64,000 bases of DNA from a virus, in IMG/VR virus record IMGVR_UViG_3300025011_000018, positions 62,001 to 126,000 of that record; one strand, 5' to 3'. Positions 6,428-61,299 of this stretch are shown one piece after another. Under the pieces are notes generated by a model. That model made no database searches and was not told where the DNA came from. It saw only the letters and a list, made by a program, of their open reading frames with translations. Position 1 is the stretch's first letter. Each line of letters begins with the position of its first letter. The position numbers and the translations under genes were made by a program.

Positions 6428-6515
6428 AATAAAACCTTCTTTCTATTTGTTTTTTTAATCCCGATAATTTATTAATATTTGACCATTTTTAGCCAGAACG
6501 GTCAAACTGGTTCTG

Positions 6516-7349
6516 TTATACTATTTTAATTAAATCATATTTTCCTAAAAAGTTTCTAACTATTAAAGCTTCACAAGGCTTAAATTCATTATAATAATTA
6601 TCTTCATCATCGTATTCTTTATTTGTCTTAGGCTCTTTAGTTAACCAAACTATATCACTATCTGCTGTTGTCTTGCGCAATTCTTTTAACTCATTTAACG
6701 CTGCCTGAGATGGACTATATTTAGTGTCCCATTTTGCCTCTTCTTCATAATCAAGGGTAAAATCAAGGAACTCTTTTTCTGCTCTCTCTATTACATAATT
6801 TTTATGTGCATATTGACCCAATTCAAGACAATCTTTTAAATATTGGCTTCCATTTTCTAATATCCAGTTTTTCTTCTCTTCTTCTCTTGTTGCCTTTTCT
6901 TCTTGTTCTTTTCTTTTTCTTTCTTCAATTTCATATTCCTTTGCTTTTCTTTCTTGTTCCTTCTTTTCTATTCCATCTTGTTCTTTATTTGCATATTTAG
7001 CCAAAAATGACTTTGATAATTTAGAATTATCAGGAAATATAAGTTGATCAAATCTATGGCTTCCATAATTATTGATTTCTAATTCAAAACTAGTCCAACT
7101 ATACCAAACACTATATGTTGATATGAAAGGCTTAATACTAATGTCTGTTATTTTATATTCTAATTCTTCAGCTCTTTTCAACCATGCTTGAGTATTATCT
7201 TTTTGTAACTGTTTAATAATCTCTTCTTTTCCATTTTCAGCGAACCAGCCAGCTTGAGCATATCCCCTCTGTTCTTCTTCTGCTTTTTTATCACAAAATT
7301 TTACAACTTCTGCATGGATATGATTTACCAGTTCATTTTGATTATTCAT
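6516..7349 (-). CDS. hypothetical protein with central coiled coil, 277 aa
   Basis: The N-terminal third is alpha/beta with an aromatic stretch (VWYSWTSFELEIN), followed by a long Lys/Glu/Arg-rich segment (about residues 125-165) that must be a coiled coil, then an acidic C-terminal domain. AGAAGGAG ribosome site. One of the two longest proteins of the left operon; family unknown. Confidence 0.65.
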   Translation of the reverse strand: MNNQNELVNHIHAEVVKFCDKKAEEEQRGYAQAGWFAENGKEEIIKQLQKDNTQAWLKRAEELEYKITDISIKPFISTYSVWYSWTSFELEINNYGSHRFDQLIFPDNSKLSKSFLAKYANKEQDGIEKKEQERKAKEYEIEERKRKEQEEKATREEEKKNWILENGSQYLKDCLELGQYAHKNYVIERAEKEFLDFTLDYEEEAKWDTKYSPSQAALNELKELRKTTADSDIVWLTKEPKTNKEYDDEDNYYNEFKPCEALIVRNFLGKYDLIKIV

Positions 7350-7479
7350 AATAATTCTCCTTCTGCCTGCACATTACAGACTTTCAAAATTCATTAATTT
7401 TGTTATAGTTCCACATTCCTTGCAACTATAGAAGCTGTTGTGTTATGCCCTTTTATGGCTCATACACAAGCCATTTATT

Positions 7480-10535: not shown

Positions 10536-10599
10536 ATTTTTCCCCTTATAACCTACCTGCTATAAAATAGTTCAGGATTTACGGCTTTTACTGCTACCC

Positions 10600-10622
10600 T
10601 GCAAGGCTTGTTATACCTTGCA
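10600..10622 (-). other. intercistronic hairpin with TATAACA in the loop
   Basis: TGCAAGG (10600-10606) pairs with CCTTGCA (10616-10622); the loop holds the minus-strand TATAACA motif. It lies in a 134-base gap between 9651-10535 and 10670-10966, which shows no gene. Confidence 0.4.
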
Positions 10623-10669
10623 AACGCTCAGGGCTTAAAGTCTATTTATACACGCCCTAACGTGTTATA

Positions 10670-53260: not shown

Positions 53261-55215
53261 ATGAATGATATGTCAATTGTATTAGGTACTAAGATAGATA
53301 CTTCCGCAACTCAGGTAGCAAAGCTAGAAGAACAGATTAAAGTTCTGTCTAAACAAATAAAAACTGCAATATCAGTAAAGTTAAGTATAGACTCTAAAGA
53401 CATCCAGTTTATTACTGAAAAAATAAATGAAGCTCAGAAAAAAGCATCTGTTAGTGGGAAAAATCTATCAAAAATTAAAGTATTTGACAGAGAAAAACTT
53501 GAAGAAGACGGCAGACAGTTTTATATGTCAGCGAATGGAATAGTCAACAGAATAAAAAAAGATTTTAAATCTCTTGGGGATGTAAATGTAGACATATTCA
53601 AAAATGCTAAAGGTCAAATAACTGGATTTAACGCTGAAGTTAAAAAATTAGACGGAACTATTGAAAAGCTGAGATTTGATCAAGCAAAAATTAAAACAGG
53701 TAACAGCACTCAAAAAGGATTTGTTTTAAGTAATTCGCTTTTAAATGACACTAATGCTGGAAATAATTTAAATGCTACTTTGAATAAATTACAGCAATAT
53801 CAAACTAAGATTGATAAAATTAAAGAAAGTTTTTCCAGCTCAGCAGGTGTAAAGGATCAAACTAATCTTACCCGTTTGAATACCGAATATTCATCTATAT
53901 TAAACCAAATTGAGAAGGTTCGTAAATCTCAGGCGTATATGTCTGATGAACAAAAGAGAAATATTGATAAGCAAATAAACTCTTTAACCTCTTTGTCAAA
54001 TAAATATAAGAATATTGAGAATGTCCAAAAAAATAGTCAGGGGAAGCAAGCTACCACCGCACAAGACGTTTCTGGAGTCGTAAAATTACAACAATCATTA
54101 GAGAAAATACAACAGAAATATTCTTCTATTAAAAGCGGTATTAGTGACCCACTTAAACTTCAGGAATTAAACACTCAATTTGACGTAATTACAAATAAAA
54201 TTACAGAATTAAAAAATAAGACAGCTAGTGGTGTGATAAATAAATCCGAATTAATTAATAATAAAACACAAATCGGACAATTAAATCACGAATTAGACTT
54301 AATGGCAAAAAAATATAAAGATTTACAAGGTTCTACTTCAGGCACTAAGACAAATGTTTTAAATTCTCAAGCAATTGAAAATGAAATTCAAAAAATAAAT
54401 AACTCTCTTGCTAGATTAAAGGTTAATAAAGATAAAGTATTTGCAGATACAAGGGTTTCTACCGAAGTAGATAAACTAACCCAAATGGAGCAATCTTTTA
54501 AAAGAGGTGAAATTTCAGCCAAAACTTATGCTTTACAAATGGATAATATACGGACTAAGGTTGCTCAAGTTTCTGGAGAATTTCAAAATATAACTAAAGA
54601 TGGATATAATTTTACTCAAATGATTGAATTAGCGGCAAAAAAAATAGTCATATGGGCTATTAGTACGCAATTAATCTACGGTTCATTAAGAAAAATACAA
54701 GAAGGACTTTCTTTTATCGAAGATATGAACAAAGTATTTGTAAATCTCCAAATGGAAATGACAAATACCAAACTTGTTTTTAGTGATATAACTAAAATTG
54801 CAAATGACTATGCTGTTGCAATGGGTTCTACGACTGCTAATGTAATGAAAGCAATATCTGTTTTTGGTACTTACACATCGACTATGGATGAAGTTTTGCA
54901 GAAATCTAAAGCTGCTATAATTTTAAGCAACATCACAGGGCAAAATGTAGAACAAACTGCTGATGCGCTCATGGGAACTCTTGCCCAGTTTAATTTACAA
55001 GCAGAAGATTCTATGCACGTAGCTGATATTATTACAGGAACAGCCCGCCAGCTTCAGTTAGATTACCCAAGGGCAATTCAAGAAATAAGTGATGGTTTAC
55101 GAACCGTGGGAAGCGTAGCAAAAGAAAGTAAAGTACCAATTGAATTACTATCATCTATGCTTGGAACATTAACTGAAAAGACGAGAAGGAGCGGTACGGA
55201 AATAGCCAATTCCCT
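53261..55215 (+). CDS. tape measure protein, exon 1
   Basis: ATG at 53261 follows GAGAGGAGATG. The exon codes for about 650 residues: long coiled coils, then the conserved tape measure block TTANVMKAISVFGTYTSTMDEV...LLSSMLGTLTEKTRRSGTEIANSL. It ends after U55215 within the Leu codon CU-A; joined to exon 2 it reads NSLRTIFGRI, the expected family sequence. The spliced gene is 6,210 nt, 2,069 aa. The protein sets tail length and aids DNA entry. Unspliced mRNA would stop eight codons into the intron. Confidence 0.85.
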
Positions 55216-55404
55216 AAATTTTGGGGCTATAGCGGCATAATAAATAAACTGCTATAGAAAATTCTCTCTAATGGTTACAATTTTTGTGGTAAAAAATTGT
55301 AGTTAACTTGGAAGTCCTATGGCGGGACGACAGGGGCGAACTTATATTGATTAATTTAATATATAAATTTTAAAAAGATAGGTGGGAGTAATTGCCCCAT
55401 TAAA

Positions 55405-55439
55405 AAAGAGTAGATTCCTAAACTACTCTTTCTTTTTTT
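55405..55439 (+). terminator. hairpin before the intron ORF
   Basis: AAAGAGTAG (55405-55413) pairs with CTACTCTTT (55423-55431), then CTTTTTTT. Terminator-like structure inside the intron, directly upstream of the endonuclease ribosome site. Confidence 0.6.
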
Positions 55440-55480
55440 GTTGTTTTTAGGAAAAGAAATATTCTATAGGAGGAATTGCA

Positions 55481-56506
55481 ATGAATGAAAATAAAATATA
55501 CTATGTTTACGAGTGGATAAGATTAGATACTAATGAACCTTTTTATGTAGGTAAAGGTCATGGAGATAGGTATTTTAGAACAAATAGCAGAAGTGATTAT
55601 TTTAAGAATATATATAAAAAAGTACCAACAGCTGTGTCTATTTTAATTGAAAATTTATCAGAAAAAGAAGCGTTGGAATATGAGTGCTGGTACATAAACG
55701 AATATAAATTTGTATTTGGATATGATTTGTGCAATCTTACAGACGGTGGAGATGGAATTAGTGGATATAAGCATACCGAAGAAAACATTAAAAAAAATAG
55801 AATGCAAACGCATGGATTTGATATAGAAGAATATAAGGACAACATTATTGATATGTATTGTAATAAATCCGCATCAACTTATGATATTGCCAATACTTAT
55901 GGCGTAAGCGATGTATGCATTGGAAGAGTATTGAGGAAATTTAGTATTCCACTAAGAATCAGTGGGCAAGGCAATGTGAAATATACTGGGTTGAAAAGAT
56001 ATAATACAAAATGCGTCTTAATAAAAGATATAAATAATAATATCATTGATTGTTTTGAGTCGTTTACTAGTGCTGGAATATGGATATCTAAAATTGGATT
56101 AACAAATCACCCAAACGGAGGCAAGAAAGCTATCCGTGTAAACATAGATACAAATATTAATTATAAAGGATTATTATTTTATGCTATTAACACATCGGAA
56201 TATTATGATTATAATCTTAATAGGAATGATTTTGTTAATTTTTATATCAATGATTTAAATATACAATCAGCAGGAAATTCAAATATTATCGAGATGTATG
56301 GGAATAAAAACACTTTGATTAATACATTTGGTTCACTAACTCAGTGTGCGAATTGGTTAGTAGAAACGAAATTTACAAATTCATTTAGTTCGGCAAATGA
56401 TGCAATATATAGAAGTAATAAAAATAATAAATTTTATAAAAAACAATATAAATTTAAAATATACTCCAAAAGTGAATATAACCAAAAAATAAATCAAGCA
56501 GTTTAA
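55481..56506 (+). CDS. GIY-YIG homing endonuclease, 341 aa
   Basis: ATG behind ATAGGAGG. N-terminal GIY-YIG nuclease in the variant form YYVYEWIR...PFYVGKGHGDRY, with EALEYECWYI and CNLTDGGDG; then HTH/NUMOD-like DNA-binding modules (SASTYDIANTYGVSDVCIGRVLRKF; SFTSAGIWIS). It would cut intronless alleles of the tape measure gene and spread intron 1. The motif Tyr, Gly and Glu residues appear intact. Confidence 0.8.
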   Translation: MNENKIYYVYEWIRLDTNEPFYVGKGHGDRYFRTNSRSDYFKNIYKKVPTAVSILIENLSEKEALEYECWYINEYKFVFGYDLCNLTDGGDGISGYKHTEENIKKNRMQTHGFDIEEYKDNIIDMYCNKSASTYDIANTYGVSDVCIGRVLRKFSIPLRISGQGNVKYTGLKRYNTKCVLIKDINNNIIDCFESFTSAGIWISKIGLTNHPNGGKKAIRVNIDTNINYKGLLFYAINTSEYYDYNLNRNDFVNFYINDLNIQSAGNSNIIEMYGNKNTLINTFGSLTQCANWLVETKFTNSFSSANDAIYRSNKNNKFYKKQYKFKIYSKSEYNQKINQAV

Positions 56507-56634
56507 CATAGTACCACCTATGGTTTGATTTATTATTTAATCAATATGAGACGCTGAACGACTTAATGAGAGAAGTCCATTTATAATGGATGTGCGAAAG
56601 TCTGAACTCCCCCATATGCCGATTTAGAAAAGGG

Positions 56635-57259
56635 AGAGAAATGGTCGCTGGTAATCAGACCAGCTAAAGAAGAACCGTTTCCGCTATTCAGTGCGAATAG
56701 TCAGTAGCCTTAAATCAAGGTGAAAGTAATAGAATGAAGAACAATTTTCGGAAGAATTTTAAATGTTGGCGAAGATGCAGACTCTGAGTCATTTAAGAAA
56801 GTTGAAAAATCATTAGATAATATTGGTGTTAAAATTAGAGAAATTGGTGGAGATGGTCAAACTCTACGTCCAGTCGGTGATATATTATCTGATTTAGCAA
56901 GTAAGTGGGATACACTTTCTGACACACAAAGACAGTCCATCGCAATGGATTCTGCGGGTAGACATACATGCCCGAATATACAGTAATGTATATAAAGAAA
57001 TTGGCTATATCGGTGAAACCCCAAACCGTAAAGGACGGTGGGCAATACCGAGAGAAGGCTTTTATTTGATATAGCTTATTTATTCAAATAAAAGAACTCG
57101 TAACGACTGCAAGCCAATCCCCTTCATAGGGTGAAGATACAGTCTGATCTATATGGAGACATATAGAGAAATGGTCGCTGGTAATCAGACCAGCTAAAGA
57201 AGAACCGTTTCCGCTATTCAGTGCGAATAGTCAGTAGCCTTAAATCAAGGTGAAAGTAA
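56635..57259 (+). repeat. 95-nt direct repeat shared by both introns
   Basis: 56635-56729 and 57165-57259 are identical. Each is the 3' part of its group I intron, containing the hairpin GCTGGT-AATCAG-ACCAGC and the segment up to GTGAAAGTAA. The region between holds exon 2 and most of intron 2. Confidence 0.9.
56737..56959 (+). CDS. tape measure protein, exon 2
   Basis: A 223-nt exon between the introns, coding for RTIFGRILNVGEDADS...ILSDLASKWDTLSDTQRQSIAMDSAG. This is the continuation expected in tape measure proteins. It ends with a complete GGU codon at the 5' site of intron 2. Confidence 0.8.
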
Positions 57260-57267
57260 CAGTTTTG
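56960..57267 (+). ncRNA. group I intron 2 in tape measure gene, 308 nt, no ORF
   Basis: Exon end CGGGU pairs with GCCCG at 56969-56973 (U.G at the splice site). P7: AACGACTG and ACAGTCTG; P9: CTATATG/CATATAG. The end G57267 is fixed by frame and by P10, where exon 3 AUGUA pairs with UACAU immediately before the guide. Short and self-contained, like Twort-type IA introns. Confidence 0.85.
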
Positions 57268-60200
57268 ATGTACCGTAAAAATATATTCATGACATTAATG
57301 GAGAACTATACAGATGTTATAAAAAATAATGAATATGCTATTAATTCTAATGGTGTAGCCCTCCAAAAAAATGAAATTTTCCAGAATTCGCTACAGTCAT
57401 CATTAAATAGACTAAAAGCAAGTTGGGAAGGGTTTTACTTAAATTCAATAAGTAGCGAAGCATTTAAAGGATTTGTATTAGGAGCAACTAAGCTCATAGA
57501 AACATTCGGAAATTTAAGAACAGTTGTTACTTTAGTTGGAACTGGTTTTGCACTATGGAAAGGTGCAGAAATACTTAAATTTTTCACGTTATTGCCACTG
57601 AGTGTACGAAGTAGTATCGTAAGTTTACAATTATTTAAGGATATATCTACTGCATCAACTATGGTCGCAAACAGAGAGGCGACTGCCTTACAAGGGCTAT
57701 CTTTAGGGTTTCAGTCTTTAGGTATGTCAATCAAAGCGGTTTTTTTATCTAATCCTTTAGGGTGGATAGCAATAGGAGTTACCGCTGTTGTTTCAGCCAT
57801 GAATATTTACGATCAAAAACAAGAAGAACAAAGGCAACAAGTAGAAAAAAATATAGAAGCTTTTAAGCAACAACAAGCTGAAGTTAATAATTTAGCATAT
57901 ACCTACAAACAAAACGCTGACCTTGCAAAAACAGATGAAACAGCAAAGTCTAAATTACTTGAAGTAGAACAACAATTAGTAACCATATTTGGTGATAGTG
58001 CAAAAGGCATAGATTTACAGAACGGTTCTATAGATGACAATATTGCTAAAATTAGAGAATTGAATAAAGAAAAAGCAAATTCTTTTATTATTGAAAATCA
58101 GCTTTTAGCTCAAAGTCAGCAAAAAAAGATATCAGGTAATAAATACGCTGCTCCTGAATTAAGAATTACATCTAATGAAATATCTGGGGCATCTTTTAGT
58201 ATGGATTTTACAAAGGGAATATTTACACAAGGTATTGGTATAAAGGAATATAAAAAATCATTAACTGAAACCTTAGAGTTGATTACCAACGCTAAAGGAG
58301 ATTATAAAGATTTATCATTAGAGGTTAGATCTGCATTAGGAGATCAAGTTCAAAAAGAACTAACTAAGACTAATACAAAAATTCAAGAATCCGAATCTTT
58401 AACTCAGCAACTACAAAATGCATTTAAACTTTTGGCAGAATCTTCAGTAAGTAGTTTTGCTAACTTAAATGATAAACAAAAAAATATTTATGATACCTTG
58501 AATAAATCTTTAAATTTTGACGTAACTAAGCCTTTAGAATATCAAAACGCACTAGGTAAAATTATTAATATTGTTCAAAATTTTAATGGTAAAACCCTTG
58601 ATTCTTTAATCGTACAATTAAAACAACTTCCTGAGTTAAAAAATGTTGATTGGAAGAATTTAATCGGCGATAATCAAGATATAAAAAATGTTACCAACGC
58701 AATTGCAGATATGGACACCGTTGTTAAAAAAGCATTTGATTCCCAAAAAGATTACGTAGACCTCCTTCAAAAAATGAAAGACGGAGAAAAATTAACTGCC
58801 GAAGAAGCTGAAAACTTAGCTAAAAATCACAAAGAATTAATACCTTATATACATGAGACATCTGATGGGTATACCGTAGAGACAGGTGTATTAGAAGATT
58901 TAAGAATTAAGTCTATACAAGTTGCTTTAGATAGAATAGCAAGTGAAAAGGAATTAACAAATAAGGTTTTTGAAGAAGTAGACGCTAGAATACAAAAATA
59001 TGGATTTGAAGTAGAGGCTATTAACGAATTCAAAAAAAATATTATTAGTAGTCCACTTGATTCTAGCGATCCTGAGTATGTTGAAAAATTTAATGCAAAC
59101 ATATCAACAGCGTTGCATAAACAAATTTTATCACAGATGAAAACTGCTGGCGTAAATATGGCAGATAAAGCAGCATATAAAAAAGCATACGATGAATTTT
59201 ATAATAAAAACATAAAAAATAATGATGACGGAGAATTATATAATTTAGGCGTTGCATTGCAGAATAAAACACAGGCAGAAACTGAAGGCGATTTTTTTGC
59301 AAATTTATTAAATAGACCTATTACAAAATCAAAAGATAAAAAAGGTTCTTCCACTGGTCAATCTTTTGATGAAAAATATGTTAAAGAATACAATGCAGAA
59401 GTCGATAAATCTTCAAACAAAATTAGGCATCTCACAAATGAATTGGATGTACTGAACGCTCCAACATCCAATTACGGAGAAAAGCATAAAAAAGTTAACG
59501 AAATTCTTGATGAACAAAAAAATAAACTTAAACAAATAACTCTATCCTCTGAAAAGTTAACAAGTAAAAAATCAGATTTAGAATTAAAAATGGACAAGAT
59601 GGGAATTAACCCAAACTGGTCAGAATCAAAAAAGAATAGTGTATTTGATTCTTGGGGAAAAGATACAGATAAGAAAAAATTGTTTAATGAATTGTATAAG
59701 GACTGGCAAGAAACAAGTAATGGAATTATACAAAATGACGATGCTTATTTTAGTACAGTTAAAGAAATATTTGCTAATAGAAAACAATTAGTAGATGATC
59801 AGGTTAAACAAGTCGAGGATTATCAGTCTAAACGTATTGCTAAAAATGAACTTCTTTTGAAACAATCTCAAGGTCGCCAATCATTATTAAAAGAAGGAAC
59901 TCCAGAATACAGTAAAGAAATAGACGTGCAAGTTAATCTGCATAAAGAGAAGCAAAAAATATTAGAAGACGAAGCAGAAAGACTTAAAAAAATATTAGCA
60001 ACAAACAAAAATTTAACCGAAGAAAACCGTACTCAAATTCAACAGAAAATTGATGCTAGGTCTAGTGGTTGGTGGGATAAAGAACAAAATATAAATTCAT
60101 TGATAAGAAAACGTCAGGAAGATGAACTCAAATACGTAGAAGATGCTCAAAACGCAATGATGGATATGCGTAAAAAAGCTGGCGAAGAAGAGAAGAAAAT

Positions 60201-61299
60201 CCTAGACAAAAATTTAAAAACATACGAAGACAACATAGATAAAAGAATAAAACTTCTCGATGAATTAATTGATAAAGAAAATTACGATACTAGTATTCAA
60301 AATCAAGATAAAGACATAAACAAAAAGCAAGCAGAGATTGACGCATTAGCTCTCGATAATTCTACCGAAGGATTAGCCCGAAAAGCTCAACTAGAAATGG
60401 ACTTAGCGGATTTAAAATCTAAAAAATATGATGATATTAATAAACATAAAAGGGACGAAGAAAAGAAGTCTTTGCAGAATCTCAAGGACGTAGAAAGTAA
60501 AAAAGTCGAAGTTGAAAAAACAGCGATTGATGAAAAATTAAGTGATGCTAAACTATTCAACACAGTTCAAGTAGAATTAACTACATCAACAGTAGGTCAA
60601 ATAATTGATGAATACGAAAAAATGGCAAAAGCTATCGGTGGAAATTATGACACAATGATAGAAAAAGCTAAGTTTTTCAATGCAGTTTCAGCAGCTAAAA
60701 GTGTTGTCAATAATGAAAATTCAGCTTACCGTAATCCAATTGATATTACAAAAGACTATAATGAAGCTTCTGGGAAAGATGTAAGAGGCACATTGCTTGA
60801 CAATATGATTAGTCTAAAAGAACAATATGGTAAAGCTACTACTGCATCTCAACGTGCATCAATACATAGTCAAGCTGAATCTATAAGAACTCAATTACCA
60901 TCCGACGTAGCTCAACAAACATCATTGTTAAATACTGAACAGTTAAAGAAGTATAAAGAATCCCTTGTGAGTGCTGGAAGAGTATATGAAAAAGGTGGAC
61001 TAATTGATTTTACTGGTGGTGCTATAGTTCATGGTAGTACCGTTAGTCCAGAATATATTTTAAATGCTATGGATTTTAAAAATTTACTCAAAATTGTAGA
61101 TATCACAAAAACCATAATGCCCATGCTCAATTCCAACATACCTAATTTAGTTAATAACAACTCTAATAAAAACGTAACAGTTCAATCAACTATACATGTT
61201 AATGGAATTCCATCAGAAAGCATGGATGGATTAGTTAAGCGTATAAAATCCGAAGTTTGGACTGATATGAGTAGAAAATTAGCTACAGAAGGAATTTAA
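57268..61299 (+). CDS. tape measure protein, exon 3
   Basis: Starts at AUG57268 (internal Met, MYRKNIFMTLMENYTD) after intron 2. It has two membrane-like segments (VVTLVGTGFALWKG; FLSNPLGWIAIGVTAVVSAMNI), long Lys/Glu/Gln coiled coils and a C-terminal domain ending KSEVWTDMSRKLATEGI. The frame is open upstream to a GTG at 57250, but this lies in the intron and is not expected to be a start. Confidence 0.85.
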   Translation: MYRKNIFMTLMENYTDVIKNNEYAINSNGVALQKNEIFQNSLQSSLNRLKASWEGFYLNSISSEAFKGFVLGATKLIETFGNLRTVVTLVGTGFALWKGAEILKFFTLLPLSVRSSIVSLQLFKDISTASTMVANREATALQGLSLGFQSLGMSIKAVFLSNPLGWIAIGVTAVVSAMNIYDQKQEEQRQQVEKNIEAFKQQQAEVNNLAYTYKQNADLAKTDETAKSKLLEVEQQLVTIFGDSAKGIDLQNGSIDDNIAKIRELNKEKANSFIIENQLLAQSQQKKISGNKYAAPELRITSNEISGASFSMDFTKGIFTQGIGIKEYKKSLTETLELITNAKGDYKDLSLEVRSALGDQVQKELTKTNTKIQESESLTQQLQNAFKLLAESSVSSFANLNDKQKNIYDTLNKSLNFDVTKPLEYQNALGKIINIVQNFNGKTLDSLIVQLKQLPELKNVDWKNLIGDNQDIKNVTNAIADMDTVVKKAFDSQKDYVDLLQKMKDGEKLTAEEAENLAKNHKELIPYIHETSDGYTVETGVLEDLRIKSIQVALDRIASEKELTNKVFEEVDARIQKYGFEVEAINEFKKNIISSPLDSSDPEYVEKFNANISTALHKQILSQMKTAGVNMADKAAYKKAYDEFYNKNIKNNDDGELYNLGVALQNKTQAETEGDFFANLLNRPITKSKDKKGSSTGQSFDEKYVKEYNAEVDKSSNKIRHLTNELDVLNAPTSNYGEKHKKVNEILDEQKNKLKQITLSSEKLTSKKSDLELKMDKMGINPNWSESKKNSVFDSWGKDTDKKKLFNELYKDWQETSNGIIQNDDAYFSTVKEIFANRKQLVDDQVKQVEDYQSKRIAKNELLLKQSQGRQSLLKEGTPEYSKEIDVQVNLHKEKQKILEDEAERLKKILATNKNLTEENRTQIQQKIDARSSGWWDKEQNINSLIRKRQEDELKYVEDAQNAMMDMRKKAGEEEKKILDKNLKTYEDNIDKRIKLLDELIDKENYDTSIQNQDKDINKKQAEIDALALDNSTEGLARKAQLEMDLADLKSKKYDDINKHKRDEEKKSLQNLKDVESKKVEVEKTAIDEKLSDAKLFNTVQVELTTSTVGQIIDEYEKMAKAIGGNYDTMIEKAKFFNAVSAAKSVVNNENSAYRNPIDITKDYNEASGKDVRGTLLDNMISLKEQYGKATTASQRASIHSQAESIRTQLPSDVAQQTSLLNTEQLKKYKESLVSAGRVYEKGGLIDFTGGAIVHGSTVSPEYILNAMDFKNLLKIVDITKTIMPMLNSNIPNLVNNNSNKNVTVQSTIHVNGIPSESMDGLVKRIKSEVWTDMSRKLATEGI

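Follow-up and report, generated by a model that had tools for sequence, protein, structure and literature searches.

Several introns within a single phage tape measure gene are known from ICP1, whose tape measure transcript was resolved by RNA sequencing and reverse transcription PCR (RT-PCR) into four exons and three introns (PMC10448857, in the sections available). A comparable arrangement is found in a 64,000-nt stretch of viral DNA, bases 62001-126000 of the 154,102-base IMG/VR virus record IMGVR_UViG_3300025011_000018. This whole stretch is called the window below, and coordinates are window positions unless another locus is named. Its tape measure gene appears to be split by two group I introns, here intron 1 and intron 2 (W-I1 and W-I2 in comparisons among introns), which carry nearly identical 3' domains. 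The sequence-only reading that proposed these introns regarded two in one tape measure gene as notable; the pair stands, but its rarity is weaker than was implied, since ICP1 has three. With several introns per tape measure gene already known, the conserved 3' domain and the near-identical tails would be the new part.

Introns of related phage systems

The likeness to ICP1 extends to an intron endonuclease and to variable endonuclease content. The enzyme is of the HNH-3 type there, whereas a GIY-YIG type is probable here; splicing was proven by RT-PCR there and is deduced from sequence in the window; and section 21 of that report does not state the intron class (PMC10448857, in part). ICP1 gave no match at E <= 0.1 to our covariance model of the 3' domain, and neither did Bacillus phage AR9, whose g205 resembles the window gene in being a virion gene annotated as joined from three pieces. 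Bastillevirinae phages, as far as the available text describes them, have genes with one to three group I introns and mixed endonucleases, but these lie in polymerase, terminase, thymidylate synthase and ribonucleotide reductase genes and give mostly IA-like matches; the authors suggest that phage introns reach beyond the named subgroups (PMC11878797). Several introns per gene are also described for Moonbeam (PMC4299906, in part).

Two further systems resemble the window introns in their ends. Otherwise different introns in virion genes of mycobacteriophages LittleE, BAKA and Optimus share 156 bp at 98% identity (PMC3706429, in part). There, however, the shared part is the 5' end and the genes are different genes of different phages, whereas the window introns have their 3' domain in common and lie in a single gene. 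Group IA2 IStrons have an extended P9 region with P9.1 and P9.2, as here, but contain P7.1/P7.2 and IS-element genes that the window introns do not (PMC4227781, in part).

The interrupted tape measure gene

The gene starts at 53261, and its coding pieces lie in three different frames of the open reading frame (ORF) list. It is made up as follows.

53261-55215, plus strand: tape measure exon 1 (PF10145, E 1.2e-11; phrog_4211, E 2.1e-23)
55216-56736, plus strand: intron 1, assigned to group I, 1,521 nt, holding an endonuclease gene (exon continuity; introns at the same site in L155 and L016; traced helices)
56737-56959, plus strand: tape measure exon 2, 223 nt (phrog_4211 785-839; homologue alignment)
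56960-57267, plus strand: intron 2, assigned to group I, 308 nt (RF00028, 70.6 bits at 56949-57166; site uninterrupted in L155, MaeS and L016)
57268-61299, plus strand: tape measure exon 3 (phrog_4211, E 6e-39)

Joining the three exons by script yields 2,070 codons with a single, terminal stop, and the proposal that removal of 55216-56736 and 56960-57267 leaves one 2,069-residue frame thus proved exact to the base. When the exons were searched separately against Pfam and PHROG profiles, they matched consecutive parts of the same families. Exon 1 covers positions 3-137 of the 201-position PF10145 and exon 2 positions 148-198, the latter at 19.6 bits, below the Pfam cut-off; in PHROG 4211 (tape measure) the three exons cover 171-773, 785-839 and 841-1725. 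By this membership the interrupted gene is taken to encode a tail tape measure protein.

Across both junctions the joined protein aligns gaplessly with the tape measure proteins of two homologues, Microcystis phage MaeS and L016. L016 is a second tape measure gene, carried by a 349-kb IMG/VR contig, and its site-1 intron was removed for the comparison. The first junction reads NSLRTIFGRI, against NSLKTIYSRI in MaeS and TALKSIISRT in L016; the second reads DSAGMYRKNIFMTLMENY, against TLAGRYQLSRFLALMNNY and QMAGTWHYSKFIALMENY. In MaeS both sites are free of introns, its own lying at another place in the tape measure gene; in L016 site 1 is occupied and site 2 is not. A search with the endonuclease of intron 1 led to a further relative, L155, whose best-matching segment is 62% identical. 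It too has an intron at site 1, while its site 2 is uninterrupted and can be read directly as GCTGGT-ATGTATAGAAGAAAT. The L155 intron is identical to intron 1 at 206 of 257 positions before the endonuclease frame and at 103 of 127 between frame and tail, that is, 80-81% outside the reading frame. Two other IMG/VR contigs contain this gene in full with no letter changed, which makes a one-off misassembly unlikely.

Group I anatomy

Helix strands were picked by eye for five introns, namely the window's two and those of L155, L016 and MaeS. The U before the 5' cut, the terminal G, the guide pairings and the P10 pairing that the sequence-only reading had described at both sites are all present in the traced strands. 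The P1 helices of the window introns are placed as follows.

55211-55227, plus strand: P1 of intron 1, exon UCCCU (55211-55215) with guide GGGGC (55223-55227), 4/5 pairs, U.G at the splice site (traced strands)
56955-56974, plus strand: P1 of intron 2, exon CGGGU (56955-56959) with guide GCCCG (56970-56974), 5/5 pairs, U.G at the splice site (traced strands)

P1 ends in a U.G pair in all five introns and is fully paired in four (in L155, for example, GCAUU/GGUGC, 5/5), the single mismatch being that of intron 1. P2, P3, P7 and P10 are paired in 5/5 introns, as are the strands of P9.1, P9.1a, P9.2 and P9.3. The strands picked in intron 1 give 7/7 pairs in P3, 4/4 in P7 and 6/6 in P8. P8 was scored in the three site-1 introns only (6/6 pairs each), the strands of intron 2 and MaeS being unequal in length, and the P4/P5 strands given for intron 2 include one unpaired position. 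Pairing is kept while the letters vary among introns in P1, P2, P3, P8, P9.1a and P9.2. Among introns at the same site, the guide, P3, P8 and P10 strands stay paired with different letters, and P3 and P8 of L016 both differ in this way from those of intron 1.

In a local Rfam search intron 2 matched RF00028 over the whole model (positions 1-253 of 253; 70.6 bits against a gathering score of 50, E 2.4e-17), and a group II intron was set aside, since intron 2 scores as group I. The default whole-window search at gathering thresholds recovered neither intron. Several points weigh against the group I assignment. Intron 1 had no RF00028 match at E <= 5 in the local search, so that the covariance check with Rfam Intron_gpI suggested earlier gave a hit for intron 2 and none for intron 1. 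The L016 intron had none at E <= 1, and the MaeS intron scored 27.5 bits, under the gathering score. The helix script tests the presence and complementarity of strands, not their uniqueness, and splicing at both sites is something we infer from sequence alone. Because Rfam gave no match, the class of intron 1 rests on hand-traced helices and on relatives. Even so, group I introns at these boundaries are the best reading, supported by protein continuity, the empty second site, the Rfam score of intron 2 and the paired changes, and to that extent the original interpretation of a tape measure gene split by group I introns holds, that of intron 1 without an Rfam match.

An IStron or transposon end was also considered and ruled out. 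The IA2 subgroup is defined by P7.1/P7.2 between P7 and the returning P3 strand (PMC3428280; PMC4227781, the latter in part). That spacer measures only 4 nt in intron 1 of the window and 3 nt in intron 2, so P7.1/P7.2 are absent. No IS200/IS605 or IS607 genes occur among the frames of at least 60 aa within either intron: intron 1 contains the endonuclease and an 82-aa antisense frame, and intron 2 has no contained frame of that size in the ORF list.

A conserved 3' domain

Both introns end in a domain composed of P9.1 with P9.1a, P9.2 and P9.3, closing in GGUGAAAGUAAYAG a few bases before the terminal G. On its sequence and predicted pairing, this domain marks a family of phage introns. It was modelled as R1, a covariance model of 110 positions.

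56599-56736, plus strand: conserved 3' domain of intron 1, from the P7 3' strand to the 3' splice site (R1 match 56599-56738, 76.2 bits, the same sequence being in the R1 training set)

Rfam offered no identity for the tail beyond a 16-bit match to IS009 at the 3' splice site (E 0.72, local search), and a blastn search of the tail against the phage collection at E <= 0.01 found MaeS only (75.9%). Searched with a pattern built on the final two elements of the tail, CAGTARCC N4-20 GGTGAAAGTAAYAG, IMG/VR gave 104 stretches and the genome collection 14 contigs, and an AGTCYRA P7-type strand lies at most 230 nt upstream in 85 of 100 distinct occurrences. The remaining 15 (contig ends, AGTCTGG variants, and L020, L088 and L089) were not aligned. 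L020, L088 and L089 look like chance matches in apparent coding sequence with no P7 strand, and were dropped before the 3'-exon count and the model search. After removal of near-duplicates by identical flanks and a cut of alignment A1 at 88% identity, 57 non-redundant sequences were aligned, the window's two among them; a MAFFT alignment of the trimmed tail (A2) was set aside with its CGCY strand misplaced.

Columns beyond the pattern are invariant too, such as the CGC opening P9.2 and the GU before CAGTA. P9.2 and P9.3 have eight pairs together, and all 449 of their cells show standard pairing, against 22-41% when the pairing is slid. Changes on both sides of a pair are observed in 41 cells, all in P9.2, against a mean of 11.1 in shuffles (0/500 as high). 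Two considerations reduce the force of this count: the shuffles ignore relatedness, and the number of pairs with any both-side change, three, does not exceed shuffles (146/500 as high). P9.2 lies outside the search pattern, whereas P9.3 is weak evidence because the pattern fixes its letters save one.

The sequence after 69 of 91 distinct occurrences forms an open 3' exon of 40 codons or more (22 were unclassed), and 46 distinct exons were scanned. Half of these (23/46) match the tape measure family PHROG 4211; eight match the head protein family PHROG 283 and eight PHROG 1357, while PF10145 is found in 10, the P22 coat protein (PF11651) in seven and SU10 MCP in one, overlap among these families not being itemised by member. 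By eye, the 3' exon also reads as tape measure in genomes L120, L128 and L129, and less clearly in L122; L120 belongs to Terribacillus aidingensis and L129 to Sporosarcina globispora DSM 4.

Searches with R1 gave 126 matches over 96 loci and a further 22 over 16 loci, numbers to be discounted in that the loci include most training sequences and near-duplicate contigs, with the window matching by construction. Our own count puts the loci with two to four matches at 26 of 112. At several loci (L021, L028, L071, L118 and others) three or four family matches occur, some a few hundred bases apart. Three lie close together on the minus strand of L127 (5165-7296), where the exon piece tested had no Pfam match.

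Beyond these collections, R1 at E <= 0.1 scored MaeS, which is in its training set, at 85.2 bits and an unverified faecal phage record at 45.8 bits. Besides ICP1 and AR9, no match at that threshold was found in T4, SPO1, SPBc2, qdvp001 or Clostridioides phage AR1086-1. Twort gave two weak matches and 812 gave one, at 20-22 bits; when read, these contain the P7/P9 part and lack the CAGTARCC...GGTGAAAGTAA strands. Rfam at gathering thresholds recovers one of 32 R1 introns in 14 loci, and at E <= 0.01 in three loci it recovers none of 10. A single search for plasmid copies with the L155 tail as query gave no match. The exact pattern occurs in one of 299 genomes of the phylum of G007, that one being the centre genome itself; given this and the 14 contigs of the genome collection, the domain looks mainly like a phage element. 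No description of it was found in the open-access literature, a scope that leaves out most subscription papers; among the matches listed in an open-access text search for its letters, only the 10-letter GTCAGTAGCC appeared, in papers on other subjects by title.

Near-identical tails on dissimilar cores

The two introns share a 98-nt direct repeat, not noticed in the sequence-only reading, that differs at a single base (97/98 identical) and folds into three hairpin units.

56635-56732, plus strand: shared tail, copy 1 (P9.1, P9.1a, P9.2, P9.3), 99% identical to copy 2, fold z -3.58
57165-57262, plus strand: shared tail, copy 2, fold z -2.71, R1 73 bits (training sequence)

Up to the splice site the tails are identical at 99 of 102 positions, whereas the 3' core directly before them matches at 54 of 79 (68%). 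These differences (3/102 in the tail, 25/79 in the core) give a Fisher p of 9e-8. A similar contrast is seen between intron 1 and L016 (tail 8/100, core 30/87; p 8e-6) and between intron 2 and L016 (7/100 and 21/74; p 3e-4). It is not seen in the control of intron 1 against L155, where tail and core differ about equally (20/100 and 24/127; p 0.87), nor between intron 2 and MaeS (16/94 and 15/68; p 0.43). At 0.94, the 3'-domain identity of the window pair is the highest of 48 same-locus pairs in 27 loci (next 0.82, median 0.75), whereas its core identity, 0.64, is low against a same-locus median of 0.74. Between loci, the 95th percentile of 3'-domain identity is 0.84 over 1,968 pairs.

The conflict between tail and core similarity is thus directly observed, and tails and cores seem to have different histories in the window introns, which suggests that these introns recently exchanged their 3' domain. 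Against this, the Fisher values are rough, with author-set boundaries between core and tail, short gappy cores and gap columns dropped; the 48 same-locus pairs include near-duplicate contigs; and strong constraint on the tail within a lineage could mimic exchange, though L155 shows none. Two courses would explain the pattern, gene conversion between the introns or a core replaced while its tail was kept, and the direction is not readable from these sequences.

The probable intron 1 endonuclease and other occupants of site 1

55481-56506, plus strand: probable homing endonuclease gene, GIY-YIG / Seg-like, 341 aa (tblastn, residues 7-105; conserved motifs)

The gene appears to lie in the P6 region of intron 1. 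Over about residues 7-105 its product matches, by tblastn, records annotated as endonucleases, one of them a Seg-like homing endonuclease. The signature of GIY-YIG enzymes is GIY...YIG followed by Arg, Glu and Asn. In the three sequences compared, YVY, FYVGKG, R30, E66/E68 and N85 are invariant, and a GIY-YIG-type homing endonuclease is the probable product. No Pfam family was matched at E <= 10 and no NCBIfam family at E <= 1, and the AlphaFold model is of low confidence (mean pLDDT 48.6). In L155 the frame is open over residues 7-341, with no start codon identified.

The site-1 intron of L016 carries instead a DUF4379-type protein, a kind discussed for phage introns (PMC12350094, in part), so site 1 has held two apparently unrelated endonucleases. 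The contig of L016 (G001) has two different tape measure genes, at about 116595 and 294224, both with an intron at the first site; either two tailed phages have been joined, or it is one large element with two tail modules. Just before the endonuclease gene of intron 1, at 55408-55441, there is a hairpin followed by a T-run that L155 also has and that the terminator scan did not call. Over 55200-57300 the promoter and terminator scan gave 12 against 12.6 and one against 0.6 in shuffles, no clear excess.

Explanations for the locus

The explanation we consider very probable is that a tailed phage has its tape measure gene split by two group I self-splicing introns of a subfamily with a shared 3' domain, and that the tails of these introns were recently made near-identical. 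Intron 1 would encode a GIY-YIG-type homing endonuclease, presumably active in homing, and the diverged relative L155 would hold the same kind of intron at the same site. Intron 2, with 308 nt and no reading frame, would occupy a second site, one that is seen to be empty in L155. In each intron, guanosine would start splicing by attacking at the U.G pair of P1, and P10 would then align the exons for joining. Both introns would belong to the phage group I subfamily with the conserved 3' domain, and the two domains would have become near-identical most likely through gene conversion or recombination between introns 530 bases apart.

The rival that survives best, a possible but less likely course of events, makes intron 2 an ectopic copy of intron 1, or of an L016-like intron, whose 5' part was later replaced, so that the tail is original and the core a newcomer. 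L016 pairs a 92%-identical tail with a 66%-identical core, and core replacement is as compatible with this as tail conversion is. There is, however, no direct sign of a replaced core, and although the 3' core of intron 2 is nearer to MaeS (53/68) than to intron 1 (54/79), a direction is not readable from so few tails. A good deal less probable is that strong selection on a protein-binding or tertiary-contact domain kept an ancestral tail in both introns with no exchange. Conservation of the domain across the family fits this idea, but the median same-locus identity is only 0.75, the L155 intron at the same site differs at 20 of 100 tail positions, and constraint alone does not usually hold sequences at 97%. 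That two insertions inactivated the gene and left its frames as relics of decay, as the three frames and the metagenomic origin might suggest, is very improbable, given group I ends that restore the frame exactly at both insertions, exons open over 2,069 codons, a related site-1 intron in L155 with an open endonuclease frame, and three identical assemblies.

Neighboring features

Directly upstream of the tape measure gene lies a tyrosine recombinase gene (PF00589; 52089-53117, plus strand). The L016 locus has one at the same place (6448-7452, plus strand of that locus), a position that seems unusual. Elsewhere in the window, a Pistol ribozyme (RF02679) was found at 10592-10665 on the minus strand (62.9 bits against a gathering score of 34.5).

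Implications for phage introns

More speculatively, the 3' domain could be a semi-independent module that moves between group I introns of phage virion genes, defining a distinct subgroup that favours tape measure and capsid genes. We hold this only tentatively. Such a module may serve as landing homology, or as a site bound by a common splicing helper, letting introns with no endonuclease, such as intron 2, multiply within one gene.

With this domain, phage group I introns that mostly escape the Rfam model can be recognised by sequence and structure, and introns missed in this way can leave virion genes annotated as several short genes. The deposited record of L160 (MW202674, 2015-3530) divides a P22-type coat protein into two coat genes separated by a short hypothetical gene, and the second coat gene is directly preceded by 38 nt that match the end of the 3' domain. 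The near-identical tails of the window introns, in turn, make it possible to ask of an actual example whether the swapping of 3' domains is a way in which group I introns evolve.

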